From NCBI RefSeq assembly GCF_030649675.1, contig NZ_JAUTDR010000001.1, positions 1-64,000 on the forward strand: a DNA stretch of 64,000 nucleotides, given 5' to 3'. The stretch comes from Haliea sp. E1-2-M8. GTDB taxonomy: Bacteria; Pseudomonadota; Gammaproteobacteria; Pseudomonadales; Halieaceae. Below the pieces are notes generated by a model that worked only from the letters and a program-made list of their open reading frames with translations, was not told the origin of the DNA and searched no databases. The position numbers and the translations under genes are program-made. This document shows positions 19,761 through 39,149 of the stretch, in pieces; position 1 is the first letter of the stretch, and the number at the start of each line of letters is the position of its first letter.

Positions 19761-22937
<3,177 letters not shown>

Positions 22938-22963
22938 GTCTGTGCCCTCCATCTGCGCGGCCT

Positions 22964-25129
22964 CTACCGCAAACCGGCGCAGCGGCTGCGGAGGCTGCGT
23001 ACAGTGGTCAGGTTGAAGTCACCGCCACCGCCACCGCCAGAGGTGGCGACCAGTTCCGGCAGGGCGGCGACAAGTTCACGCAGCAGCGCGGGTAATTCGG
23101 TGTTGACCGGGCCCTGACTTTCCAGCACCCGGTCCAGCATGTCCTGCACGTCGCGTCCGAGCTCTGCCAGGGTGTAGAGACCCACGGCGTTGCCATTGCC
23201 CTTGAAGGTATGGAAGTGGCGCCGAATCTCCCGCAGCTGCTCATCCCTGGCGGCGCCCCGTTCCCACTCCGGCAGTAACGCCTGCAGACGGTCGATGATC
23301 TGCGCCGACTCCTCCAGAAACACTTGCCGAAACTCCTGCGGGATATTTTCGCCCGCCGGCGCGGCTGCCTCCGGCTCCTCCTCCTGCTGCAGTGGCTGCA
23401 GGTCCGACCGCGGCACCGCCGGACGTGGTACCGCCGCTTGCGGTGCTGCCGGGGCGAATGCGGCAAGCCGTGCGGCATGTTGCTCTGCCGTCAGCAACAG
23501 GGTCGAGAAATCTTCCACCGGATCGAGCAAACGGCTTTCCAGGTAAAGCGTGAGCCAAACCAGGGCGTCAGCCAGGGCTTGCAGCGCAGGGGTATCGCTG
23601 GCGACTTCACCACTGCGGCTGGCATTCCGCAGCCAGTCATGACATGAGCTCACCACAGCGGCTTCCCGCGCCAGACAGGCAAACGACAGCGCCTCCCTGA
23701 TCCCGGCCAGAGCTGCGCAACAGTCATCCAGGGATTGCTCATCCCGGGGCTGCTGCTGCAATTGACCCTGAATCTGGTTCAGCTGATTGCAGGTCGCGGC
23801 AACGAGACCTTCAAGATGGTCGAACGCCTGTACTGCTGGCGGAATAAAACCGTTGTGGCGGAGCCTGTTGCTGAGCGCAATTTCGGTTTCGACCATGGCT
23901 CCGGCAATGGACATGACCACCTGTTTGCCGCGCCGCACATCCTGGCTGAAGCGGCCGCTGAATACTTGCTGCAACATGTCGCGCGCGGCCTGAATGTCCT
24001 CTGCGTGATCAATCTCCTCCGCGGCGATCAGGCGCAACCGGATTTCCTCAAAAACCGTGGCGGCATCGGGCAACGGTGTAGAACCTCCCTCGACCGCGGC
24101 CAGGAGGTCGGCAGCCTGCAGGCGATCCACCAGAGCGTTGAGCAGCGAGTGCGCGCCCTCCAGGGCGGCGATCAGCGCGTCGTTGTGAATAAGACCGCGC
24201 TCGGCATCGTGCAGAGTGTTGCCGTCGATGCCGAAAACCTGCCAGATGTGCCCGACGTACAGGGGTCGAGCCTTGCAGGAAGCCATGTAGTACAGCATCT
24301 GCTGCAGGTAGCTGTGGTAATCCATGGCGGGGTCGGCAACGCTGCCGTGTTCGCGCGCATACTTGATCATGAACGCGCCCGCCTTGAAGAGCTGCGCCAC
24401 GCACTCATCGGGTTCCACCAGCCCGGCGGCGATGGCCTCACACAGACCCACCAATAGCAGCCAGAACCTCTCCTGTTCGGTGCCGCGGAACAGGCCGTGC
24501 ATCTTGTGCGCGATGCGCGCCACGGTGCGCACATTTTCCACACTCGGGGCGGCGCCGAGAGCGGATTTCGCGCCCTGCAGGTAGGGCGCCAGCAGCACAT
24601 CCGCGCTGCGACGGATCGTTTCAGCTGCGGGCTCGGGAGCGGCGCCGCTGATACCGCAGCCCGCTGGTAGCTGCAGGTAAAAAAAGAGTGCCGGTGGCCG
24701 CACGCGCTCGCCTTCCCAGCGGCGCAAATTGTTGACACAGGGTTCCAGGCCCCTGCCGGTGTCGATCCGCGACCGCTGCACATGGTCCAGGTAGGCCGGC
24801 AGTGTCTTGATGGCCCGCATCAAACCGCCCATGGTGAGGTTGCGGCGCTCGGCAACCACCTGTTCCCGCAGTAGCCGCAGAAACCCGCGCTCCATCTCCA
24901 GCGCCAGCATTTCCGCCTTGTGCAGCCTGAGAGTGCCGAGGGCCGCGGTGATATGGTGCACGGCCCAGAGACTTTCCAGTAGCGGTTGCCTGCACGCGGT
25001 CTCCCGACTGTATGCAATCAGGCCTGCCTCTACCTGGTCGAGCGACGCCAGCAGCGGCCGCAACAGGCTGCGCAGCCCGATGACATCTATCGACCCGGCC
25101 TCGGGCCGGGCTGCCAACTGCCTAGACAT
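22964..25129 (-). CDS. ChpA N-terminal-like Hpt protein
   Basis: A 721-aa mostly helical protein resembling the N-terminal multi-Hpt region of ChpA. Residues about 45-90 (LWAVHHITAALGTLRLHKAEML) look like a degenerate Hpt helix. A C-terminal Hpt near residue 640 keeps a histidine in FHTFKGNGNAVGL and is the likely phospho-acceptor. There is no ATPase domain. The protein ends 11 bases before the CheA-like gene begins its first possible start. The ATG at 25129 overlaps the receptor gene stop by 8 bases; a TTG at 25153 is possible. Together with the next gene it equals one split ChpA. Confidence 0.8.
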   Translation of the reverse strand: MSRQLAARPEAGSIDVIGLRSLLRPLLASLDQVEAGLIAYSRETACRQPLLESLWAVHHITAALGTLRLHKAEMLALEMERGFLRLLREQVVAERRNLTMGGLMRAIKTLPAYLDHVQRSRIDTGRGLEPCVNNLRRWEGERVRPPALFFYLQLPAGCGISGAAPEPAAETIRRSADVLLAPYLQGAKSALGAAPSVENVRTVARIAHKMHGLFRGTEQERFWLLLVGLCEAIAAGLVEPDECVAQLFKAGAFMIKYAREHGSVADPAMDYHSYLQQMLYYMASCKARPLYVGHIWQVFGIDGNTLHDAERGLIHNDALIAALEGAHSLLNALVDRLQAADLLAAVEGGSTPLPDAATVFEEIRLRLIAAEEIDHAEDIQAARDMLQQVFSGRFSQDVRRGKQVVMSIAGAMVETEIALSNRLRHNGFIPPAVQAFDHLEGLVAATCNQLNQIQGQLQQQPRDEQSLDDCCAALAGIREALSFACLAREAAVVSSCHDWLRNASRSGEVASDTPALQALADALVWLTLYLESRLLDPVEDFSTLLLTAEQHAARLAAFAPAAPQAAVPRPAVPRSDLQPLQQEEEPEAAAPAGENIPQEFRQVFLEESAQIIDRLQALLPEWERGAARDEQLREIRRHFHTFKGNGNAVGLYTLAELGRDVQDMLDRVLESQGPVNTELPALLRELVAALPELVATSGGGGGGDFNLTTVRSLRSRCAGLR

Positions 25130-26369
25130 CGGTGACACTGCCGCCGCTGCCAACGCTTGTGGCGCCGTGGCTGTCTATCCGGAAGCGGGCCAGGCTCCGC
25201 CCCAGGGTGGAGAGGGTCTGCTGCAGGGCCGCAACTCCCTGTTGCATCAGCTCGGCGCTGTCACTGAGGCCACAATTCTGCTCACGAACGCTTTTCAGCA
25301 GGGCATCCATCCTGCGCACGGCTTCCGCGGACTGCTGCGTCGTCGTGGCCATGGAATCCACCATGTCCAGCAGTTTCCCCGCACCCCGACCGATGTCCTC
25401 CAGGGAACCGTCGATGCGCTCGACGAAGTCCAGCACGGTGACCACGGCGCCCACCGTATGCTCGAGGCTGTTGAGATTCTCCGCCGACAGGTTTTGCAGC
25501 AGACGAACTTCGCTGGTGATTTTCCGCCCTTCCTCTTCCGCTTCCCGCAGCAGGTCACCAATGGCCTCGGCAATGCCCAGAAAAGGACGGCCGTGTTCAC
25601 CCGCGCGCTCTGCCTCGATGCGGGTATTGATGGCGACCACGGAAATTTTCGTGTTCAGTGACTGGATGTACTCGGCTGCCGTGGTCACCGACTGGATCAA
25701 CTCGCCCTGGCGCTTGGCGGACTTTGAGGTCTCCTGGATGGACTCGCGGACATCGGTGGACGCCCTGGACATATCCGCGGCCAGACCCTGGCCCCGATTC
25801 ACCAGCTGGCGGTGCTGGCTCATCGCCTCCCTCGCCTGTTGACTCACCGTGGTCAGGTTGTCCGCACCACGCAAGTCCTGGGCCAGGGAGACACCCGCGT
25901 CCTGCAGCTCCCGGCCCAGCGCAGCACTGCGCTCGCCGCCGCTGCTGCCGTTTTTACCGAGTTTGTGCAGCTCGGTAACCAGCCCCTCAAAGGGGCTGCG
26001 AATGCTGGCCACCAACTCCCGCTGTCGCTCAAGTGCCGTATTCAGCTGTTCAGCAATGGCCCCGGTCGCCGGCGAATCACTGCTCGCAACCGCGGTGAGA
26101 TCTCCCTCCGCGAGCCGGCTGAGAGCCGTGGTGATACCGGCGGAGTCAGCCGTGCGACTGTCGTTGGCCCGGGCCTGCCAGAGCAACACGGCGACCACAG
26201 CCAGCAGCAAAACCAGCACCGCGATCACCAGCAGCAGCACGCTGCGCGCGGCGGATGCTTCTGCAACACTGCCCAGCGTGATCGCCAGGCCGACAATGGA
26301 ACCCAGCAGCCCAACCAGGAGTGCGACCAGGCCCGCGGCCACAGGTACGGAGGGAGTGGTCTTGCTCAT
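25122..26369 (-). CDS. PilJ-like chemoreceptor without periplasmic domain
   Basis: A 415-aa methyl-accepting-type protein. Two hydrophobic helices (about residues 10-33 and 43-66) are separated by only about 10 residues, so there is almost nothing outside the membrane. A short HAMP-like segment and a long coiled coil follow. The receptor hairpin tip is recognisable but altered: TKISVVAINTRIEAERAGEHG against the usual NLLALNAAIEAARAGE. ATGA overlap with the CheW-like gene. It occupies the pilJ position; absence of the PilJ sensor domain suggests cytoplasmic or membrane-state sensing. Confidence 0.85.
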   Translation of the reverse strand: MSKTTPSVPVAAGLVALLVGLLGSIVGLAITLGSVAEASAARSVLLLVIAVLVLLLAVVAVLLWQARANDSRTADSAGITTALSRLAEGDLTAVASSDSPATGAIAEQLNTALERQRELVASIRSPFEGLVTELHKLGKNGSSGGERSAALGRELQDAGVSLAQDLRGADNLTTVSQQAREAMSQHRQLVNRGQGLAADMSRASTDVRESIQETSKSAKRQGELIQSVTTAAEYIQSLNTKISVVAINTRIEAERAGEHGRPFLGIAEAIGDLLREAEEEGRKITSEVRLLQNLSAENLNSLEHTVGAVVTVLDFVERIDGSLEDIGRGAGKLLDMVDSMATTTQQSAEAVRRMDALLKSVREQNCGLSDSAELMQQGVAALQQTLSTLGRSLARFRIDSHGATSVGSGGSVTDV

Positions 26370-26926
26370 GATGCTGAATCCTCGGCAATCGCTTCCGGCC
26401 GTGCAGCCGTGTCTGAGAGGGCGCCGACTGTCGCCAGCCGGCTGCTATCGAGCAGCCCCAGAAATCGTTCTCCCTGCCAGAATCCCCCGTCGCAGCAGGC
26501 CGCAAGGGGGCCCTCAATTCGGGTCTCCGTAGCACGCTGTGCCATCGGCAGTTTGATATTACCCTCGACCCGGCTCAGGGTAATGCCGACGTAGAGGCCG
26601 GGGCGCTTGATTACCAGGCAGTACTCCCGTCGCCGCCCCGGAGGTAACGGTTGGCCAAACAGGCTGTCACCACAGCAAACCGGCAACAACCCACCATGGT
26701 GACTGGCAATCCCCAGCACCCAGTTCCGCGTGCCGGGGATCGGTGTCAGGACCGGCACGGCAATAACGGCCTCGATGTCCCGCGCCGCGACCAGGAGCGG
26801 TACGCCCGCAATACCGACCACCCCTCCCCGCCAGTATTCCGGATCTGGCAACGCCGGGGGCAAGCCGCACCCGGTACTGGCATAGCGATTCTGCAGAGCC
26901 GTCAGCGCGGCAAAGGCGGCCGTCAC
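26366..26926 (-). CDS. CheW-like adaptor, PilI position
   Basis: A 186-aa protein with a single CheW-type domain (VVGIAGVPLLVAARDIEAVI, then TRNWVLGIASHHGGLLPV) expected to couple the PilJ-like receptor to the CheA-like kinase. GTG start directly after the stop of the response regulator gene and 4-base overlap with the receptor gene, so strongly coupled translation. It is placed exactly as pilI is between pilG/H and pilJ. Confidence 0.82.
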   Translation of the reverse strand: MTAAFAALTALQNRYASTGCGLPPALPDPEYWRGGVVGIAGVPLLVAARDIEAVIAVPVLTPIPGTRNWVLGIASHHGGLLPVCCGDSLFGQPLPPGRRREYCLVIKRPGLYVGITLSRVEGNIKLPMAQRATETRIEGPLAACCDGGFWQGERFLGLLDSSRLATVGALSDTAARPEAIAEDSAS

Positions 26927-27337
26927 TTACGCCTCCTCGCTCGCCCGGGTATTTTCGTAGATAAGCTGGCGCAGGACCGGGTCCGGGGGGATCTTGCTGA
27001 CGTGGGCCGTGGCGCCTCGCGCCTGGCCGCGGGCGATGTCAAATACACCGTCCGAGGATGAAAGCAGGACCACCGGCAGGTCACGGGTATCCTCGCCGTG
27101 GCGGATCAGGCTGCAGGTCTGGTAGCCGTCGAGCTCCGGCATGCTGATATCCAGAAAGACAATGTCCGGCTTGAACCGGCGCAACAGCGCCAGCGCCTTG
27201 TAGCCGTCCTCTGCCGTCTCGACCTCGCAGCCCATCTGCTTCAGCGTGTGCGACATCATCATGCGGATGGTTTTGGCGTCATCGACAATCGCGACACGAA
27301 TACCGGAGACGTCCTGCACTTCTGTTGGTTCACTCAT
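26927..27337 (-). CDS. PilG-like response regulator
   Basis: A single-domain receiver of 136 aa. The acidic pocket (IVDDAKTIRMMM), phospho-acceptor aspartate in FLDISMPELDGYQTC and a lysine in the VSK segment are present. The DGYQTC-LI segment closely resembles PilG, the CheY-like regulator of twitching motility in Pseudomonas. No output domain, so it should act by protein contact. GGGGAAGAGG precedes the ATG. The 101-bp gap upstream may carry an internal promoter, but I see no clear one. Confidence 0.85.
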   Translation of the reverse strand: MSEPTEVQDVSGIRVAIVDDAKTIRMMMSHTLKQMGCEVETAEDGYKALALLRRFKPDIVFLDISMPELDGYQTCSLIRHGEDTRDLPVVLLSSSDGVFDIARGQARGATAHVSKIPPDPVLRQLIYENTRASEEA

Positions 27338-27438
27338 CGTCAGCCTCTTCCCCTACTGCGGGTAACAGTATTTTGGTAGTAGCACAGGCTCTGCAAGCAC
27401 TAATTGCCGTTTTCCCGAATTGCCGGCATCGCGCGTAC

Positions 27439-28023
27439 TCAGGGTTCTGCCGGAAACAGCACGCTGCGGAACGGCTCCAAATGCCCTGCCTGAAAGTCCT
27501 GCCACTCGTAGATGTTGAACTGCTGCATCAACTGCAGGCAGCGCTGGAAAACCACATCGGCCTCATAGCTTGAAGGCGGAATGTCGTAGCGCTCCGTGAG
27601 CCGGGCAAAAATCCGCGCGGCGATATCCCTGCGAGCGCGGTCCTCACGGTACAGCAGGTGCTCTACGGGAGAGGCTACTACCGGGGTGCCGTAAACCAGA
27701 AAAGCCTCCCAGCGCTGGGGATCATGGCCCGCTCCCAGGCGGGCGGCCAGCAAACGCACCAGCGCCTGCAGATCCCGCCGCGGAGGCAGGTGGTCCTGCT
27801 GCAGCCAGCGGCGAACCTCCGCTTCCTTCCACTCCGGGTTGATGGCGAGCACCCCCAGGACACGTCCTTCGATGCGCGAGGGCACAATCGCCGCAAGATC
27901 CAGCAACAGGTTGAGGCGAGCGGAGAAACCAAGCGGCTCCAGATCCGCTGCATCGAGCAGAGTCTTGTACTCCGCCGCCAGCTGCGCGGGGCTCGGGCTG
28001 CCTGCTGATTGATCTTCAGCCAT
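27439..28023 (-). CDS. conserved-looking cytoplasmic protein of unknown function
   Basis: A 194-aa protein without signal peptide or membrane segment, rich in Leu, Arg and Ala and predicted mostly helical. Aromatic residues cluster near the C-terminus (NIYEWQDF). Its ATG overlaps the stop of the AAA+-like gene by 8 bases, so the two are translationally coupled. It lies just upstream of the chemosensory genes on the same strand. I do not recognise a family or motif. Confidence 0.75.
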   Translation of the reverse strand: MAEDQSAGSPSPAQLAAEYKTLLDAADLEPLGFSARLNLLLDLAAIVPSRIEGRVLGVLAINPEWKEAEVRRWLQQDHLPPRRDLQALVRLLAARLGAGHDPQRWEAFLVYGTPVVASPVEHLLYREDRARRDIAARIFARLTERYDIPPSSYEADVVFQRCLQLMQQFNIYEWQDFQAGHLEPFRSVLFPAEP

Positions 28024-29293
28024 GAGCCTCAGCCTGCCCGGCGGGCCAGGTCAGTGCCCGCCACTCGCGCAGGCGTCTGCCGTAGGTGGGCCTCGATACT
28101 CCCAGCAGCTGCGCCCGCAACTCCACCGTCGCGACCTCACGCTGGGCCTCCAGAAGTTCCAGTAACAGCTCCTGGCCCGCGAGCAACGGACTGGCGCCCG
28201 CACTGCCGAGGCCGCGAACCCAGTCGGCCACCAGGCGCGCAGGTTCCTGCCACAGAGCAGAGCCATCGCGCGCGGACTGGCGCTTGGCGATCACCGGAAG
28301 CCAGCGGACGATATTGCGACGGCTGGTCTGCAGGAACTCAGCACTGGGGCCGTGCCGCCCCTGATAACGGACCAGCGCCGCGAGCACGATCTCATCCTCC
28401 AGCCAGGTACCGAGGGGCAGCGGTGTCTGGGCCAGCAACAGCTGGTTAACCCGCTCGCCCAGCGCCAGTTCGAGCTCTTCCCAGGCACTGGGACTGTACC
28501 CGCCGCTGGTAAACTCCTGGCCGGCTAACGCCTGCAGCGGAGGCTCCAGGCTGCCGCTGGTCGCCCGGTCACCGAGATAGAGCTTGAGATCCACCGGGGT
28601 CAACCATTCGCCCCCCGGCTTCTGCTCCAGGGCTCTCACCACGCGCTGCCGAATCTCGCTGATATTGCCGTGCCAGGGATGCTGGCGCATGGCCTGCTCC
28701 GCTTCCGGTGTGAAGCCCTTGACGACGATACTGCGGCTTGCACATTCCTGGGACAAAATTTTATGGGCCCAGCGCAGCACGGCCCGCTGGCGGTGGCGCA
28801 TTGGCGGCACCCGGATCGGGTAGGCAGCAAACGCGCTCGCCAGTTTGCGTTGCAACAGTCCCTGGGCAACCAGCGCTTGCAAGGTCTCGGGAAACAGCGC
28901 AACGAAGCGCACGGCGGGCAGGTAGGTGGGTGTGTCGGTGTCCGCGAGCAGCCGGGTCGCCATTTGTCGCGCCAGCTTCAACTGGGCATCAGCACTCATC
29001 AATTGCGGTGATTTGAATACCAGGGTCTTGCCAGCGCCGGTCAGCAGAGCCTGGCGAATGCGGCGGTTGGCGTCGTCGCGGCTGCGGAATTCCCGGCAGT
29101 CAACGGCGACCAGGCTGTCGGCGCAGCCCCCGGCCTGGGTGTGAAGAATACGGGCAATGTACATTTTGCCGGTGCCGCGTGCACCAATGATGGCCACGGG
29201 AGTCTCGGTCCGCGCCAGGAACGCCGCCTGGTCTACCGCCCCCTCCATATTGTCGAGGACATAGCCTTCCAGCTTGTCTGCGGTTGTCAGCAA
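28016..29293 (-). CDS. degenerate sigma-54-activator-like AAA+ protein
   Basis: A 425-aa protein with the layout of a bacterial enhancer-binding protein but without a receiver. Walker A is kept (GARGTGK, residues 37-43). Where GAFTGA and Walker B should be, the sequence is short and reads LLTGAGKTLVFKSP (83-96), lacking the sigma-54-contacting loop and the acidic pair of LFLDE. A C-terminal lid-like segment (HPWHGNISEIRQRV) resembles the activator HPWPGN-motif, and two Fis-like helix-turn-helix segments follow (about 310-345 and 385-412). It may bind DNA or protein rather than activate sigma-54. TTG start 4 bases after the nrdJb stop; an ATG at 29248 is an alternative. Confidence 0.75.
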   Translation of the reverse strand: MLTTADKLEGYVLDNMEGAVDQAAFLARTETPVAIIGARGTGKMYIARILHTQAGGCADSLVAVDCREFRSRDDANRRIRQALLTGAGKTLVFKSPQLMSADAQLKLARQMATRLLADTDTPTYLPAVRFVALFPETLQALVAQGLLQRKLASAFAAYPIRVPPMRHRQRAVLRWAHKILSQECASRSIVVKGFTPEAEQAMRQHPWHGNISEIRQRVVRALEQKPGGEWLTPVDLKLYLGDRATSGSLEPPLQALAGQEFTSGGYSPSAWEELELALGERVNQLLLAQTPLPLGTWLEDEIVLAALVRYQGRHGPSAEFLQTSRRNIVRWLPVIAKRQSARDGSALWQEPARLVADWVRGLGSAGASPLLAGQELLLELLEAQREVATVELRAQLLGVSRPTYGRRLREWRALTWPAGQAEAHG

Positions 29294-29297
29294 GTAT

Positions 29298-30014
29298 CTA
29301 CCCGCACTTGGAATCTGCGCAGTTCAGGCAGGTCATGCAGCCGTCCAGCAGCACCACAGCGCGGGTGCTGCACTTGTAGCAGAGACTGGCGCCCGGGGGA
29401 AACGGCGAGTCGTCACTCTCGGTGGGCTCGCCTTCAGCGGTGTCAGTATTGCTCGCACTGCCCATGATTTCCCGACGCTTGTCGTCGATGAACTTCCGCT
29501 GGTGCTCGTCCAGCTTCGACTCGATCAGGCCTATGTGCTTCATGTGATCTTCAATCGCGTAGCCGATTTCCGCCACGATCGAGGGCATGAAAACGCCGCC
29601 CTTCTTGAAATAGCCGCCGCGGGGGTCGAACACCGCCTTCAGCTCTTCAACCAGGAAGGTGGCATCACCACCCTTGCGGAACACTGCCGAGATCAGCCGG
29701 GTCAGGGCCACCACCCACTGGAAGTGTTCCATATTCTTGGAGTTGATAAAGACCTCGAACGGGCGCCGCAGCTCGTGCTCGGTGCCCTCGTTGAGGATGA
29801 CATCGTTGACCGTGATGTAGAGGGCGTGCTCCGACATGGGCGTCTTGACCTTGTAGGTCGAGCCCACGAGCCGCTCCGGCCGCTGGAAGGATTCGTGCAT
29901 GTGCACCACATTACTGGCGGGCACCGCCTCCTGCTCCCCTGCGACAGGGTCCGGGACCGCGCCCGGTTGCACCACCTTGTAGCTGACAATCTTGCTGCCG
30001 ATCTTTACCGTCAT
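29298..30014 (-). CDS. nrdJb: class II ribonucleotide reductase, C-terminal subunit NrdJb
   Basis: A 238-aa protein equal to the C-terminal part of long NrdJ enzymes, encoded separately as in Pseudomonas. It ends in a zinc-ribbon/redox segment with CYKC, CMTC and further cysteines, the region thought to deliver reducing equivalents to the active site. The central region (YITVNDVILNEGTEHELRRPFEVF) matches the domain conserved in this group. ATG start, 14 bases after the nrdJa stop, so one operon. Confidence 0.9.
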   Translation of the reverse strand: MTVKIGSKIVSYKVVQPGAVPDPVAGEQEAVPASNVVHMHESFQRPERLVGSTYKVKTPMSEHALYITVNDVILNEGTEHELRRPFEVFINSKNMEHFQWVVALTRLISAVFRKGGDATFLVEELKAVFDPRGGYFKKGGVFMPSIVAEIGYAIEDHMKHIGLIESKLDEHQRKFIDDKRREIMGSASNTDTAEGEPTESDDSPFPPGASLCYKCSTRAVVLLDGCMTCLNCADSKCG

Positions 30015-30028
30015 TGCTGTCTCCAGGC

Positions 30029-33000
30029 TCAGAACTTGCCGTAGTAGCCTTCTTTAAGGGCATCGAACAGGTTCGCCGCCGTGTGCATTTCACCGTCGTA
30101 TTCCACCTCCTGATTGCCCTTGAGTTCCACTACGGAACCATCCTCGAGAGTGAACTGGTACACAGTGTTTTCAAGGTCCTGCTCCTTGACCAAAACCCCC
30201 TGGAACGCCTCCGGATTGAAGCGGAAGGTGGTGCAGCCCTTGAGGCCCTTGGCGTGGGCGTAGAGGTAGATGTCCTTGAAATCCTCGAACGGATAGTCCG
30301 TGGGCACGTTGGCCGTCTTGGATATGGAGGAATCCACCCACTTCTGGGCGGCGGCCTGGATATCCACGTGCTGCTTCGGTGTCACGCTGTCGGCAACGAT
30401 GAAGTAGTCGGGCAGTTTTTCCTCTTCGCGTTCACTGTAGGGCATGGCACGCGGGTTCACCAGGCTGCGGTAGGCCAGCAGCTCAAAGGAAAACACGTCC
30501 ACCTTCTCCTTGCTCTTGCGCCCCTCGCGAATCACGTTGCGCGCATAGTGGTGGGCAAAACTGGGCTCGATGCCATTGCTGGCATTGTTGGCCAGGGACA
30601 GGGAGATGGTGCCGGTGGGCGCGATGGAAGAGTGGTGGGTGAAGCGGGCCCCCTTGGCCTCCAGTTCGGCCACCAGTTCCGGCGCCACCTCCGCCACCCG
30701 CTGCATGTAGCGGCTGTAGCGCGCGTGCAACACCCTGCCGGGCAGGCGGTCGCCGACGTCGACCCCGTCCCGCGTCATTTCCGGGCGCGCGGCCAGCATT
30801 TCCGGGGTAACCTCAAACAGCTCCTCCATGATCGGGGCCGGGCCCTTCTCTTCGGCCAGGGCGATGCCCTGCTGCCAGCCCACCAGAGCCATTTCCCGGG
30901 ACACTTCCTCGGTGAACTCCACCGAAGCTTCGTCGCCATAACACATGCCCAGCATGGTGATGGTAGAGCCCAGGCCCAGGAAGCCCATGCCGTGTCGGCG
31001 CTTGTGCACAATTTCGTGGCGCTGCTGCTCCAGCGGCAGCCCGTTGATTTCCACCACGTTGTCGAGCATGCGGGTGAATACCGCTACCATCTCGCGGTAG
31101 CGCTCCCAGTCGAAGCGGGCCTTGTCGGTGAACGGGTCCAGCACCAGGCGGGTAAGGTTGATGGAGCCCAGCAGGCAGCTGCCATAGGGGGGGAGGGGTT
31201 GTTCGCCGCAGTTGTGGGCGTGCAGACCATTGGCGTCGAAGGTATTGATGCCGGGAACCTGTACATCGTAGACATCCTCGACGCCGTCCGGTTCGACAGA
31301 GGCTACCGTGGCCACAAACCGCTCCCGGTTCAGGCTGCGGGAGTAACCCGCCAACGCGTCGCTCAGTTGCGCCTGCTTGGCGGTGTCGGCAAAACCTATG
31401 CGTTCGGCAAATACAGCCAGATTGGCACCGCTGATGACCAGCTCGTGCTGCGCACGGGTGGCGTAGGTCGCTCTGCCGCCGCGGCCATCGGGCAGCAGTG
31501 TTGCACCGGCCTTGCGCCGCTCGCGGTACACGGTCGAGTTGATGCCCAGGCGCAGCAACATCCGCTGTGCCGCCTCAAGAGTCCCAAGGTCGGACTGTGC
31601 AAGACGCACGCTGACGCCTTTCTCCTGCGAGCCCTGGACCGATCCGTCGGCATCGAACAGCCCCCGCAGCAGGCCACAGTGGAATTCGCTGGAGGACGCC
31701 TCCGCCTGCGGCGTGATGGTCTTTTTCCCCGGCGCCATGCCAAGGCCGAGCGCCAGCTGGCGCAGGGCACCGGTGGCCAGGCGGTATTCGTCGCGCCCGG
31801 CCACTTTTTGCCAGCCGGCAAAGTCGGCGCGATGTGGCAGGCAACGGGCGGCCGCAAGAGCCCCCGCCATAACACCTTCGACACCGTCTACCGTACCACC
31901 CTCATTGACCGCCAGACGCCGCGGCCAGACCGACAGTACTGCCTTGTCTGCCTTCAGCGTGCCATCACCAAGCAGCAGGCCGATCAGATAGCCCTCGTCC
32001 CGGGAGTATGCGCCCTGCCATGTGGAGCCGCTGCGATGGTCGTTGAGCAAAACCTGGTCGCCGGCTCGCAGCGCGCCCGCCTCGCACCACTCGGTTTCCA
32101 GGCGCCAGCGGGTGAGGGCGGATACCCTCCGCACGCGATGGTCAGCGGTAAGCCGCAGGGCGGGGCCTTCGCGGGTCTGCAGGCGCAGGACGGGTTTGCT
32201 TGCAGTGCGAAAGAAGCCTTCGTTGCCGGTGGCATGATCGCGGCCATCAACACGGGCCAGAAAGGCGCGGCCGATAAGATCCATAACCTGCTGCGGACCA
32301 GCGGCGGTCTGGACCCAGGTGTCGGCAGTCACACAGGGGTTGGTAGCGCGGATATTTTCCAGCCACCAGTTGTTGTTCATCTGGTTGACCCGGTCGATCA
32401 GGATAAACCCGGGCTCGGCAAAGTCGTAGGTGGAGGCCATGATCATGTCCCACAGCCTGCGCGCGGGCAGCGTCTTGTAGACACGGCAGGCGACCTCGCC
32501 GCGTTCGTTGCTGACATAGCCCCTGGTAACCGGGAACGAGCGCCAGAGCACCAACGGGTCATTGGCGAGATCCATGGCGGCTTCTTCCACCTCCCTGGCA
32601 GTCACCGGGAAGCTCAGCGACCAGTCCGCGTCGCTCTTGACCGCTTCGATGAATTCATCGGTAATCAACAGGCTCAGGTTGAACTGCCGCAGGCGGCCGT
32701 CCTCGCGCTTGGCGCGAATGAAGTCCATGACATCGGGGTGATGGATATCAAAGGTGCCCATCTGGGCGCCGCGGCGGCCACCGGCCGAGGACACGGTGAA
32801 ACACATCTTGTCGTAGATATCCATGAACGACAGCGGGCCCGAGGTATAGGCGCCGGCACCACTGACGTAGGCCCCCCGCGGCCGCAGGGTAGAGAATTCA
32901 TAGCCGATGCCACAGCCGGCCTTGAGAGTCATCCCTGCTTCGTGATTCTTCTGCAGGATATCGTCCATGGAATCAGTGATGGTACCCGAGACCGTGCAGT

Positions 33001-33301
33001 TGATCGTCGAGGTGGACGGTTTATAAGCCTCTGCCCCGGCATTGGAAATGATCCGGCCCGCGGGCAGGGCACCGTTCTGAAGGGCCCAGAGAAAACGCTG
33101 GTACCACTGCTTGCGGGCGCTGTCCGTGTCCTCGACCTCGGATAGCGCGCGGGCAACCCGTTTCAGGGTGTCCGCGATATCGCGGTCTACCGGCTTGCCG
33201 GCGCGATCCTGCAGGCGATATTTCCGGTCCCAGATATCCAGAGAGGCATCCTGCAGGCCTATCTCAACTACCGAGTGCAAAGCCTTGACGACTTCTCCCA
33301 T
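30029..33301 (-). CDS. nrdJa: class II ribonucleotide reductase, catalytic subunit NrdJa, with intein
   Basis: Adenosylcobalamin-dependent reduction of ribonucleotides, oxygen-independent. The precursor is 1090 aa; removing the intein (residues 323-697) leaves about 715 aa, the usual NrdJa length. Extein landmarks include GRIISNAGAEAYKPSTSTINC, GCGIGYEFSTLRPRGA and the NPCGEQPLPPYG active-site loop, which the intein splits just before the cysteine. C-terminal blocks SIAPTGTISL and KGCTTFR are intact. The ATG at 33301 is preferred (AGGAG 9 bases upstream) over a TTG at 33364 whose added residues look unconserved. It heads a minus-strand run through nrdJb and the AAA+-like gene. Confidence 0.95.
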   Translation of the reverse strand: MGEVVKALHSVVEIGLQDASLDIWDRKYRLQDRAGKPVDRDIADTLKRVARALSEVEDTDSARKQWYQRFLWALQNGALPAGRIISNAGAEAYKPSTSTINCTVSGTITDSMDDILQKNHEAGMTLKAGCGIGYEFSTLRPRGAYVSGAGAYTSGPLSFMDIYDKMCFTVSSAGGRRGAQMGTFDIHHPDVMDFIRAKREDGRLRQFNLSLLITDEFIEAVKSDADWSLSFPVTAREVEEAAMDLANDPLVLWRSFPVTRGYVSNERGEVACRVYKTLPARRLWDMIMASTYDFAEPGFILIDRVNQMNNNWWLENIRATNPCVTADTWVQTAAGPQQVMDLIGRAFLARVDGRDHATGNEGFFRTASKPVLRLQTREGPALRLTADHRVRRVSALTRWRLETEWCEAGALRAGDQVLLNDHRSGSTWQGAYSRDEGYLIGLLLGDGTLKADKAVLSVWPRRLAVNEGGTVDGVEGVMAGALAAARCLPHRADFAGWQKVAGRDEYRLATGALRQLALGLGMAPGKKTITPQAEASSSEFHCGLLRGLFDADGSVQGSQEKGVSVRLAQSDLGTLEAAQRMLLRLGINSTVYRERRKAGATLLPDGRGGRATYATRAQHELVISGANLAVFAERIGFADTAKQAQLSDALAGYSRSLNRERFVATVASVEPDGVEDVYDVQVPGINTFDANGLHAHNCGEQPLPPYGSCLLGSINLTRLVLDPFTDKARFDWERYREMVAVFTRMLDNVVEINGLPLEQQRHEIVHKRRHGMGFLGLGSTITMLGMCYGDEASVEFTEEVSREMALVGWQQGIALAEEKGPAPIMEELFEVTPEMLAARPEMTRDGVDVGDRLPGRVLHARYSRYMQRVAEVAPELVAELEAKGARFTHHSSIAPTGTISLSLANNASNGIEPSFAHHYARNVIREGRKSKEKVDVFSFELLAYRSLVNPRAMPYSEREEEKLPDYFIVADSVTPKQHVDIQAAAQKWVDSSISKTANVPTDYPFEDFKDIYLYAHAKGLKGCTTFRFNPEAFQGVLVKEQDLENTVYQFTLEDGSVVELKGNQEVEYDGEMHTAANLFDALKEGYYGKF
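31211..32335 (-). mobile_element. LAGLIDADG-type intein in NrdJa
   Basis: In-frame insertion of 375 codons. It starts with Cys (block A CVTADTWVQTAAG), has block B with TADH, two dodecapeptide endonuclease motifs (GYLIGLLLGDG near precursor residue 437 and LFDADGS near 548), block F (DVYDVQVPGINTFDANG) and ends HAHN, followed by Cys as first C-extein residue. All residues needed for class 1 splicing are present, and both endonuclease acidic residues are kept, so homing activity is possible. Confidence 0.95.
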
Positions 33302-33380
33302 GACCCTTGCTCCTGTGACCTGCGGACCCGGGGTAGTGTGCGCGCAGGTCGCCGTCTCAGGCAAGCCAAAACGATATAGG

Positions 33381-36375: not shown

Positions 36376-37782
36376 ATGAAATACTCAGACTGCGCCCGCC
36401 GTATCGGGCTGGCGCTGGTACTGGTGAGCCTGGCGGCGTGCGTCAGCCAGCCGCCGGACCACGGGGCGGAACAGGCGCAGGCGGCATTGCTGGCCCGCGG
36501 GCTGGATACCAGCCTCCAGCAGGACCAGTTCGCCGGTGAACTGTCGCGACAGCAGGCGGTCCAGGCCGCTGTCCTTAACCATCCCTCCGTCAGGGCAGAA
36601 TATGCCCGCCTCAATATCGCGGCTGCAGATGTCGTGCGCGCCAGCGAACTGCTCAACCCGCGCCTGTCCCTGAGCTGGCTCGATGTCAGTGGCGGCAGCA
36701 ACGAGCTGACGCTGGGCCTGGCCCAGAGCCTGGCAGCCGTTATGCTGCGGCCCGCCCGCCAGCGCATTGCCGCCGCCGACTACGAGCTCGCGACACTGGC
36801 GCTGGCGGACAATTTGCAGGAACTGGCGCTGGCAACAGAGTCGGCCTGGTATGCGCTGGTGGCCGCGGAGCAGGGTCTACAGGTGCAGGCCCGCGCTTCC
36901 GACACGGCTCTGTGGGCGGACGAGCTGGGCTCACGCTTTGCCGCTGCGGGCAATATGGCACCGCTGCAGCGCGCTGAGCTGGCACGCAGCGCAGCGGAGG
37001 CCCGGCTGGAACTGCTCGACGCGGAGCGGCAGCGCGACCAGGCTCGTGCCCGGCTCGAGCAGCAGCTGGCACTGCACCATGAAGACTGGTCGGTGCCGAC
37101 GACACTGCCGCTTCCTGCCACTGACGCACCAGACCCCGAGCAACTGGTAGCGCAAGCGCTGGACGCCCATCCGGCGCTACAGACTCTGGCCTGGGAACGG
37201 CGGCGTCTGTTGAGCGTCGGGGACAACGCCAGGAGAGAGAGCTGGCTGGACGAGGCGGAAGTGGGCGTGGAGCACGAGCGCTCGGGCGAGGAACGGGCAA
37301 CCGGCCCGGAACTCGCTTTCCGCCTGCCACTCTGGCACCGCAATGCCGGTACCCGGCTGGCACTTGCCGCTGAACTGGAGCTGCTGGAAGCGCGCGAGGC
37401 CTCCCTGCGCGGCCAACTTCCGCGGCGACTGCGCCTGCAGTTGGGGGAGCTATCCCGCCTGCGTGAAGCGCTGGAGGTTAGGGAGCGCTTACTATTACCA
37501 GCCCTGGCGGCAGAGGTGGAAGCCCGCCAGGATCGGGTCAACTTCATGCTCGACGGGGTATTCAATCTGCTTGGCAGCAAACAGTCCGAACTCCGGGCCT
37601 GGCGCGATCACGTTGCAACCCTGGCCGAATACTGGCAGCAGCAAGTGGAGCTTGCCGACACTGCTGGACGCGCTGCAACTCCCGCGGGCGAGGGCCTGCT
37701 GGACGTGTCCGCAGTCGCACCTCCGGAAAGCAACAGCCAGGCCCCTGAGCAACAGGAACAACACCACGGGAGACACCACTGA
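36376..37782 (+). CDS. TolC-family outer-membrane lipoprotein
   Basis: A 468-aa outer-membrane efflux-type protein. The N-terminus has a lipoprotein signal with lipobox LAAC (cysteine about residue 22). Two long helical repeats of the TolC fold follow (about 60-250 and 260-440), rich in Ala, Leu, Glu and Arg. It resembles the CusC/CopB-adjacent TolC-like proteins of copper clusters, but no periplasmic adaptor or RND pump gene is next to it. GGAG lies 9 bases before the ATG. The multicopper oxidase start overlaps its stop (TGATG). Confidence 0.85.
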   Translation: MKYSDCARRIGLALVLVSLAACVSQPPDHGAEQAQAALLARGLDTSLQQDQFAGELSRQQAVQAAVLNHPSVRAEYARLNIAAADVVRASELLNPRLSLSWLDVSGGSNELTLGLAQSLAAVMLRPARQRIAAADYELATLALADNLQELALATESAWYALVAAEQGLQVQARASDTALWADELGSRFAAAGNMAPLQRAELARSAAEARLELLDAERQRDQARARLEQQLALHHEDWSVPTTLPLPATDAPDPEQLVAQALDAHPALQTLAWERRRLLSVGDNARRESWLDEAEVGVEHERSGEERATGPELAFRLPLWHRNAGTRLALAAELELLEAREASLRGQLPRRLRLQLGELSRLREALEVRERLLLPALAAEVEARQDRVNFMLDGVFNLLGSKQSELRAWRDHVATLAEYWQQQVELADTAGRAATPAGEGLLDVSAVAPPESNSQAPEQQEQHHGRHH

Positions 37783-39149
37783 TGAAGCGCAGAGACTTCC
37801 TTGTGGCCAGCGGCAGCGTTCTGCCGGCACTGGCCATCACCCGGGCGATGGCCAACAGCGGCCACGTCCACACCAATCAGGGCGAGCCCACAGCGGGCCG
37901 TCGCGATCCACAGGGCTACATGCCAGTACAGACCCCCAACGGCTGGACGCTACCTCATCGCATGGTCGACGGGGTCAAGGAATTCCACCTGGTGGCGGAA
38001 GAGATTGAGCACGAGTTCGCCCCCGGGTCCAGGGCCAAGTGCTGGGGCTACAATGGCACCAGCCCGGGGCCGACCCTGGAAGCCGTGGAAGGCGACAAAG
38101 TGCGAATCTTTGTCACCAACCGGCTTCCCGAGCACACCAGTATCCACTGGCACGGCCTGATCCTGCCTTCCGGCATGGACGGCGTTTCCGGCCTTACCCA
38201 GCCGGCCATCCAGCCGGGTGACACCTTCGTCTACGAGTTCACCCTGCAGCAGCACGGCACCCACATGTACCACCCCCACGCGGATGAAATGGTGCAGCTG
38301 GCCATGGGCATGATGGGCATGTTCATCATCCATCCCCGGGACGGTGAACCCGAACACATAGACCGCGACTACGCCATACTCCTGCACAACTGGGCAATGC
38401 ATCCCGGTACGTCGCGGCCGGACCCGGCGGTGATGGTGGAGTTCGATCTGTGGACCATGAACTCGAAGGTGTTCCCGGCCATCGACAGCCTGGTAGCCGG
38501 CAGTGGCGAACGGGTTCGGATCCGGCTGGGCAACCTCTCCATGTGGAACCACCCGATCCACCTGCACGGAGTACAGTTCCTGGTCACCGGTAGCGACGGC
38601 GGCCGCTGGCCCCGGGAGCAGTGGCGCAGCGAGGTCACGGAAATCATCGGCGTCGGCCAGATGCGGGATATCGAGTTTGTCGGGGTACCAGGTGACTGGG
38701 CCTTCCATTGCCACATGGCCCATCACACCATGAACCCGATGGGGCACGAGATTCCCAACACCCTGGGGGTGAATCAGGATGGGGTAGAAGAGAAGATACG
38801 CACGCTGCTACCGCGCTATATGGCCATGGGCGAGCACGGCATGGGCGAACATCAGGACCATACTGACAGTGGGCACATGACCGGGCCGCCCAACACCCTG
38901 CCGATGATGATGGGCGAGGGGCAATTCGGGAACATCGAAATGGGCGGCATGTTCACTGTGGTCAAGGTCCGGGATGGCCTGGCGGCAGGGGACTTCCGTG
39001 ATCCGGGCTGGTATCGGCACCCCGAGGGTGAGGTTGCGCGGCGGGTCAGCGCCGATCCGGACTACGGCCAACCGGCCCGACGCGGTAAACTGGCGGGGCC
39101 GAACAGCTCGGATTTGCCGGTGCCGAAACGGCAGGGCCACCAGCACTGA
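37782..39149 (+). CDS. multicopper oxidase, CopA-like
   Basis: A 455-aa Tat-exported copper oxidase (N-terminal MKRRDFLVASG). All four copper-ligand motifs are present: HWHGLILPSG, HGTHMYHPHADE, HPIHLHG and HCHMAHHTMNPM (type 1 and trinuclear sites). The C-terminal part carries a Met/His-rich segment (about residues 345-390) as in periplasmic Cu(I) oxidases that protect against copper. It is shorter than the 600-aa CopA. Start overlaps the TolC-family stop, so the two are co-translated. Confidence 0.92.
   Translation: MKRRDFLVASGSVLPALAITRAMANSGHVHTNQGEPTAGRRDPQGYMPVQTPNGWTLPHRMVDGVKEFHLVAEEIEHEFAPGSRAKCWGYNGTSPGPTLEAVEGDKVRIFVTNRLPEHTSIHWHGLILPSGMDGVSGLTQPAIQPGDTFVYEFTLQQHGTHMYHPHADEMVQLAMGMMGMFIIHPRDGEPEHIDRDYAILLHNWAMHPGTSRPDPAVMVEFDLWTMNSKVFPAIDSLVAGSGERVRIRLGNLSMWNHPIHLHGVQFLVTGSDGGRWPREQWRSEVTEIIGVGQMRDIEFVGVPGDWAFHCHMAHHTMNPMGHEIPNTLGVNQDGVEEKIRTLLPRYMAMGEHGMGEHQDHTDSGHMTGPPNTLPMMMGEGQFGNIEMGGMFTVVKVRDGLAAGDFRDPGWYRHPEGEVARRVSADPDYGQPARRGKLAGPNSSDLPVPKRQGHQH

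Follow-up and report, generated by a model that had tools for sequence, protein, structure and literature searches.

We analysed a window of 64,000 nucleotides from Haliea sp. E1-2-M8 (contig NZ_JAUTDR010000001.1, positions 1 to 64,000; the window and all coordinates refer to this whole stretch), in which nrdJa, the gene for the predicted catalytic subunit of a class II (B12-dependent) ribonucleotide reductase in its split form, NrdJa/NrdJb, with predicted dependence on adenosylcobalamin (AdoCbl), is interrupted by an intein. The insertion lies directly before Cys323, and alignment supports this cysteine as the predicted thiyl-radical cysteine of the enzyme, used also as the +1 splicing residue; one residue would thus serve two chemistries, as splicing nucleophile and as radical catalyst, which would explain a target that is hard to escape. 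With high confidence, we interpret the element as an active homing intein that exploits a residue the host cannot change and that would be removed by class 1 splicing. Judged by its sequence, it belongs as an unexceptional member to the intein allele rir1-b, which is widespread and already published, and the element itself is not new.

The minus strand from 30029 to 33364 is a single open reading frame of 1111 codons in the translated window; nrdJa probably starts at the ATG at 33301, which gives a precursor of 1090 residues and a spliced protein of 715. The gene is matched by PF02867 and by TIGR02504 (545.6 bits, cut-off 399.95), the latter in two pieces flanking a 375-codon insert. A preliminary description of this DNA had placed an intein at 31211..32335, and the insert occupies exactly these coordinates, in frame and free of stops, with the junctions RATNP^CVTADTW ... 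GLHAHN^CGEQPLPPYG, i.e., between Pro322 and Cys323. The features of the locus are as follows (the boundary at intein residues 110/111 is that adopted for the analysis of substitution rates; HN-type alleles belong to the collection of occupied genes treated below):

32336..33301, minus: N-extein of NrdJa, residues 1-322, ending in NP; TIGR02504 and PF02867 matches, likely ATG start at 33301
31211..32335, minus: intein of 375 residues at Pro322/Cys323
32006..32335, minus: N-terminal splicing part, intein residues 1-110 (Cys1; T63-A-D-H66), from alignment and fold match
31322..32005, minus: LAGLIDADG homing endonuclease domain, intein residues 111-338
31961..31990, minus: LAGLIDADG motif 1, YLIGLLLGDG, residues 116-125, with D124 (D in 103/104 distinct HN-type alleles)
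31643..31672, minus: LAGLIDADG motif 2, LLRGLFDADG, residues 222-231, with D228 (D in 104/104 distinct HN-type alleles)
31211..31321, minus: C-terminal splicing part, intein residues 339-375 (D357, H374-N375)
31208..31210, minus: codon of Cys323, +1 splicing nucleophile and predicted radical cysteine, from alignment to residue 322 of 1xje
30032..31210, minus: C-extein of NrdJa, 393 residues; stop codon at 30029-30031
29298..30014, minus: nrdJb, small subunit with a TSCPD domain and a cysteine-rich C terminus (PF12637, and NF006417 matching at its C-terminal end)

All residues of class 1 splicing are there (Cys1, the TxxH motif T63-A-D-H66, H374-N375 and Cys+1), as are the catalytic acids D124 and D228 of the two LAGLIDADG motifs, just as the preliminary description had listed them. 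In fold comparisons, the predicted structure of the intein matched both intein splicing domains (the HINT fold) and LAGLIDADG endonucleases. A model of the whole precursor reached a predicted local distance difference test score (pLDDT) of 79.3 and a predicted template modelling score (pTM) of 0.63, with residues 319-324 and 694-703 below 50, so that it says nothing firm on the junction. The guanine plus cytosine (GC) content of the intein is 0.660 vs. 0.616 in the exteins, and at third positions 0.741 vs. 0.81.

The identification of Cys323 rests on a phmmer alignment in which it pairs, within NPCGE, with residue 322 of the Thermotoga maritima NrdJ (1xje). We take Cys322 to be the radical cysteine of that enzyme; a literature search for this residue found nothing. 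The corresponding radical cysteine of E. coli NrdA is Cys439. The finger-loop motif around the catalytic cysteine is NxCxE, with NPCxE in 3,175 of 3,347 class II sequences (PMC9669993). The claim that the junction cysteine is the radical cysteine thus withstood the alignment that could have overturned it, and a junction cysteine other than the radical one was rejected, as far as sequence can show, by its pairing with Cys322.

The nrdJb gene is separate and begins 14 bases past the nrdJa stop. This split form is described from Pseudomonas aeruginosa and almost all sequenced gamma-Proteobacteria that have a class II enzyme (PMC4520616). The host genome (4.84 Mb in 94 contigs, 98.8% complete) carries a single copy of the intein and two proteins matched by PF02867, namely NrdJa and, at C78, a class I NrdA with an uninterrupted finger loop (SSNLCTEI); a class III NrdD was not found at this completeness. 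With an uninterrupted class I enzyme and no class III enzyme detected, a failure of NrdJ splicing should hurt mainly without oxygen.

Intein-free genes in close relatives, which the preliminary description had proposed as a check, were abundant. The related set comprised 97 genomes including the window's own, and 44 passed the NrdJ family cut-off; two of these (G074, 403 bits; G077, 400 bits) matched at profile positions 4/5-592, resembled class I rows below the cut-off and were excluded unfetched. Of the 42 nrdJ genes compared, 5 are occupied (the window, G004, G010, G024 and G055) and 37 are empty (34 with a split NrdJa, 3 with another type of NrdJ), and in 37/37 intein-free genes the exteins meet at the exact insertion point with no base gained or lost. 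Among the eight genomes of the window's genus, two are occupied, five are empty, and no nrdJ was found in G002; the named relatives with the intein within Halieaceae belong to Haliea and Chromatocurvus. On an extein tree of the 39 split-type genes, the five occupied genes need five changes, at least four of them forced by starred branches, and empty sisters stand beside the window (G006; 98), H. salexigens (G007; 96), Chromatocurvus (G021; 99) and Haliea EAC94 (G068; 94). A count of changes on this tree accommodates gains and losses alike.

The allele is spread far beyond this family. A search of genome contigs yielded 144 relatives, of which the best 80 by score were kept (a ranking that favours full-length inteins), and in a class sample of 369 genomes, the window's own included, 36 matched the intein at E 1e-10. 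Five loci (L002, L134, L135, L136 and L148) had been dropped beforehand as copies, and the SP-beta-type L116 was on the same list. Loci were kept if the extein matches ended at residue 322 and resumed at 323, a rule that lost class I loci and no nrdJ matches. Combined, this gave 111 occupied alleles, 108 of them distinct (three were identical copies between the collections); the SP-beta-type loci, which are without the required C-extein match, L113 and L178-L185 are not among the 108. Identity pairs came from 88 of the 111 alleles with near-complete exteins and the intein tree from 59 of those 88, both before copies were removed. The insertion point is NP^C in 108/108 distinct alleles, the two residues after the cysteine being GE in 95 of them and AE in 13, and none of the 111 contains a stop; Cys1, the block B TxxH, the penultimate His and terminal Asn, and the +1 residue are invariant in 104/104 distinct HN-type alleles. 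The overall correlation of intein and extein identities (given below) has strong exceptions: the inteins of L149 and L082 are 81.7% identical vs. 42.3% for their exteins, and in the intein tree the copies of Thiobacillus and Hydrogenophilus, whose NrdJ is of a different type, fall within those of split NrdJa. The copy of Moorella, of a different phylum, is 60% identical in the intein and 29-30% in the exteins. For cases such as that of Moorella, horizontal transfer into the same codon is the best explanation.

We considered and rejected a strict target rule, with CxEQ required after the junction: it fits 108/108 distinct occupied sites, and the three empty sites of the other type read CGEI, but L185 and L113 have an intein before CGEI. 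No close phage or plasmid carrier was found: full-length matches in phage records (n=20) were about 25% identical and partial ones up to 32%, and the two plasmid records gave 33% and 25%. In L126-L132 the match is limited to the C-terminal 32 residues, and L126-L128 are without an adjoining reductase in translations inspected by eye; a viral fold search returned many intein-bearing phage proteins, some of them reductases, at 12-23% identity. One viral contig, L113 (IMGVR_UViG_3300036770_003991), encodes an apparent class II reductase with a 41% identical intein at NP^CGEI and is a possible carrier.

The endonuclease is under purifying selection, as its substitution rates indicate. Between the window and H. 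salexigens, the ratio of nonsynonymous to synonymous substitution rates (dN/dS) of the endonuclease is 0.087, compared with 0.106 for the splicing part and 0.061-0.066 for the exteins. Pooled over 19 pairs sharing no allele (from 139 of 5671 pairs with dS of 0.03-0.7), the endonuclease has a ratio of 0.229 and the splicing part one of 0.211. In Chromatocurvus vs. the window the ratio is 0.307 for the endonuclease but 0.077 for the splicing part, a difference suggesting that the measure is able to detect decay. The Chromatocurvus copy (L055), in which extra residues break LAGLIDADG motif 2, and that of Methylobacter marinus (L083), in which D124 is replaced by N, show ongoing endonuclease decay; for the window copy, a dead or degenerate endonuclease was rejected. 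The earlier suggestion that the element may still home is supported by its intact catalytic acids, by the purifying selection acting on its endonuclease and by the patchy occupancy among close relatives.

As a mechanism, we propose that nrdJa would be translated as the 1090-residue precursor, in which Cys1 would attack the Pro322-Cys1 bond, Cys323 would take over the N-extein as a branched thioester, and Asn375 would cyclise with the assistance of His374, after which Pro322 and Cys323 would be joined. The resulting NrdJa of 715 residues would form, together with NrdJb, an AdoCbl-dependent reductase with its thiyl radical on Cys323; we infer that the precursor has no reductase activity until it is spliced. 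The LAGLIDADG domain would cut an intein-free nrdJ at the finger-loop codons, and repair would copy the intein in. The site would persist because the host can neither freely mutate the target codons nor tolerate an imprecise deletion.

Several observations weigh against this interpretation. Intein and extein identities correlate (Spearman 0.73, 3741 pairs), and the inteins of the five Halieaceae genes group as a single clade (99), in a quick tree with one very long row that makes its stars less trustworthy. The dS between the window and H. salexigens is similar in the intein (1.09-1.14) and the exteins (0.85-1.09), and this likeness, together with the single clade, would also fit inheritance within the genus accompanied by repeated loss. 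Vertical descent with losses, in place of repeated homing, may thus account for some of the history. There is no clear co-conversion patch around the site, identity near the junction being high in most pairs inspected. Across the 19 pairs, the dN/dS of the endonuclease ranges from 0.07 to 0.63, with the highest values in distant, high-GC pairs, and some of the comparisons approach saturation or are skewed by high GC. Finally, PF14890 scores the intein at 28.1 bits, below its cut-off of 35.8, and TIGR01445 has no match in the whole genome at E 0.001, yet was positive in 4 of 14 control genomes; we read these weak general-profile scores as a limit of the models, as a profile of the intein's own family finds solved inteins at 1e-8. 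For annotation this is a warning, since two general intein models miss the window copy at their cut-offs.

An intein retained by the host as a regulatory switch, its splicing responding to redox or another signal and gating the only oxygen-independent reductase detected, seems to us very unlikely. It would fit the absence of a detected NrdD from the 98.8% complete genome, a +1 nucleophile that is also a redox-active catalytic cysteine, and the retention of Cys84 in 76 of 79 distinct HN-type alleles of split NrdJa hosts, and it has a precedent in the NrdB intein of Aquifex, in a related enzyme, which has an effect on iron loading (PMC8772380). Yet the intein is dispensable, as five of the seven same-genus genomes in which nrdJ was found are without it; the constraint on the endonuclease is similar to that on the splicing part, which is what a selfish element would show; and Cys84 is a cysteine in only 2 of 25 alleles of other hosts and may merely track ancestry, which its co-occurrence with host type closely follows. 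A more specific version, in which the intein is a post-translational gate whose splicing rate sets the anaerobic supply of deoxynucleotides, with Cys1, Cys84 and Cys323 as a thiol sensor, would draw on the fact that the +1 nucleophile is the predicted radical cysteine and that NrdJ is the only oxygen-independent reductase detected; we regard it as very unlikely.

That the intein no longer splices, leaving nrdJ effectively dead and the cell reliant on class I NrdA, is highly improbable. The intact class I gene would permit it, and Pro at -1 slows the first splicing step in other inteins, but Pro occupies this position in 108/108 distinct alleles, so these inteins evolved with it; moreover, the frame has no stop or frameshift, all splicing residues are kept, and the low dN/dS against H. 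salexigens holds for exteins and splicing part alike. We can practically dismiss the idea that the junction cysteine is near the active site without being the radical cysteine, in view of the 1xje alignment and the class II motif NPCxE, or that the insert is an assembly error, the same insert being found in the same place in all 108 distinct alleles; nothing came to light in favour of either idea.

The active homing intein that we favour has close counterparts among published elements. A published count of the allele rir1-b gives 55 sequences from bacteria, 15 from halobacteria and 5 from other euryarchaea (PMC4071816), and Table 3 of the same paper lists Arhodomonas aquaeolei, Methylobacter marinus, Acidovorax sp. 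CF316 and Rhodanobacter thiooxydans under it; Haliea is not mentioned in the available part of its text. Our copies from these organisms (L052, L083, L109 and L048, respectively; matched to the listed members by organism, not accession) are 62-69% identical to the window intein, homologous across all 375 residues and inserted at the same NP^C, with no difference in kind. The surprise implied by the preliminary description thus finds no support, the site being a known allele and the cell having an uninterrupted class I enzyme besides. The NrdJa intein of Azotobacter chroococcum, of the LAGLIDADG-3 type (residues 321-690), is absent from A. vinelandii (PMC4465626); compared by description, it interrupts a split NrdJa at about the same residue as the window's, with a reported length of 370 vs. 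375.

Other reductase inteins differ more. The SP-beta-type NrdE intein of IMG/VR viral contigs (L114, L116, L119 and L133) likewise has this cysteine as its immediate downstream neighbour (NL^C ... GN^CSEV) and is 25-27% identical over residues 1-371, but its host enzyme is of class Ib and Gly replaces His before the last Asn. The Mth RIR1 intein, which separates a Pro from a Cys in a ribonucleotide reductase, is a mini-intein without an endonuclease; older work on it and on the SP-beta intein comes close to the idea of a double role. No paper stating the double role of this cysteine was found in the literature searched, which most subscription papers lie outside, and we claim no novelty. The NrdJ-1 split intein has the native exteins NPC and SEI and thus sits one residue later, with Ser+1, and is split (PMC13123727), whereas the Aquifex aeolicus NrdB intein shares a LAGLIDADG endonuclease, a position in the reductase active centre and demonstrated splicing, but interrupts the small subunit between metal-ligand residues (PMC8772380). 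A preference of inteins for conserved sites has been reported, with arguments for its cause (PMC2814812). The matched occupied and empty genes within one genus offer a ready system for studying homing, splicing and cost in the same enzyme.

More than one intein lineage has reached this loop. Among 11 weak matches in the class sample (28-37% identity), 10 (L174-L177 and L179-L184) share the NP^C insertion point in nrdJ but belong to a different lineage, whose members end in Gln and are about 30% identical; that of L184 was matched only in two pieces. The eleventh, L178, is an intein in the class I NrdA of G235, one residue after the radical cysteine (NLC^ ... ^TEI), while the class II gene of G235 contains an intein of the window's family. 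Insertions at NP^C, NL^C, NLC^ and NPC^ thus place inteins of more than one lineage immediately before and after the radical cysteine.

A second intein site was seen at Gly129/Cys130 (KAG^CGIGYEF, the intein ending ...IHN^C) in L152, L155, L162, L174, L175, L067 and L088, and by similarity in L037 (the same as L150); the nrdJa of the window is empty there. Elsewhere in the window, the minus strand beyond nrdJb (19761-29293) carries a CheA-like hybrid kinase with response regulator, Hpt, CheW and HATPase domains, together with a sigma-54 activator-like gene and sequences for a separate Hpt protein and a chemotaxis receptor domain. On the plus strand (36376-39146), a gene for an outer membrane efflux protein adjoins one for a multicopper oxidase, perhaps a copper-handling cluster.
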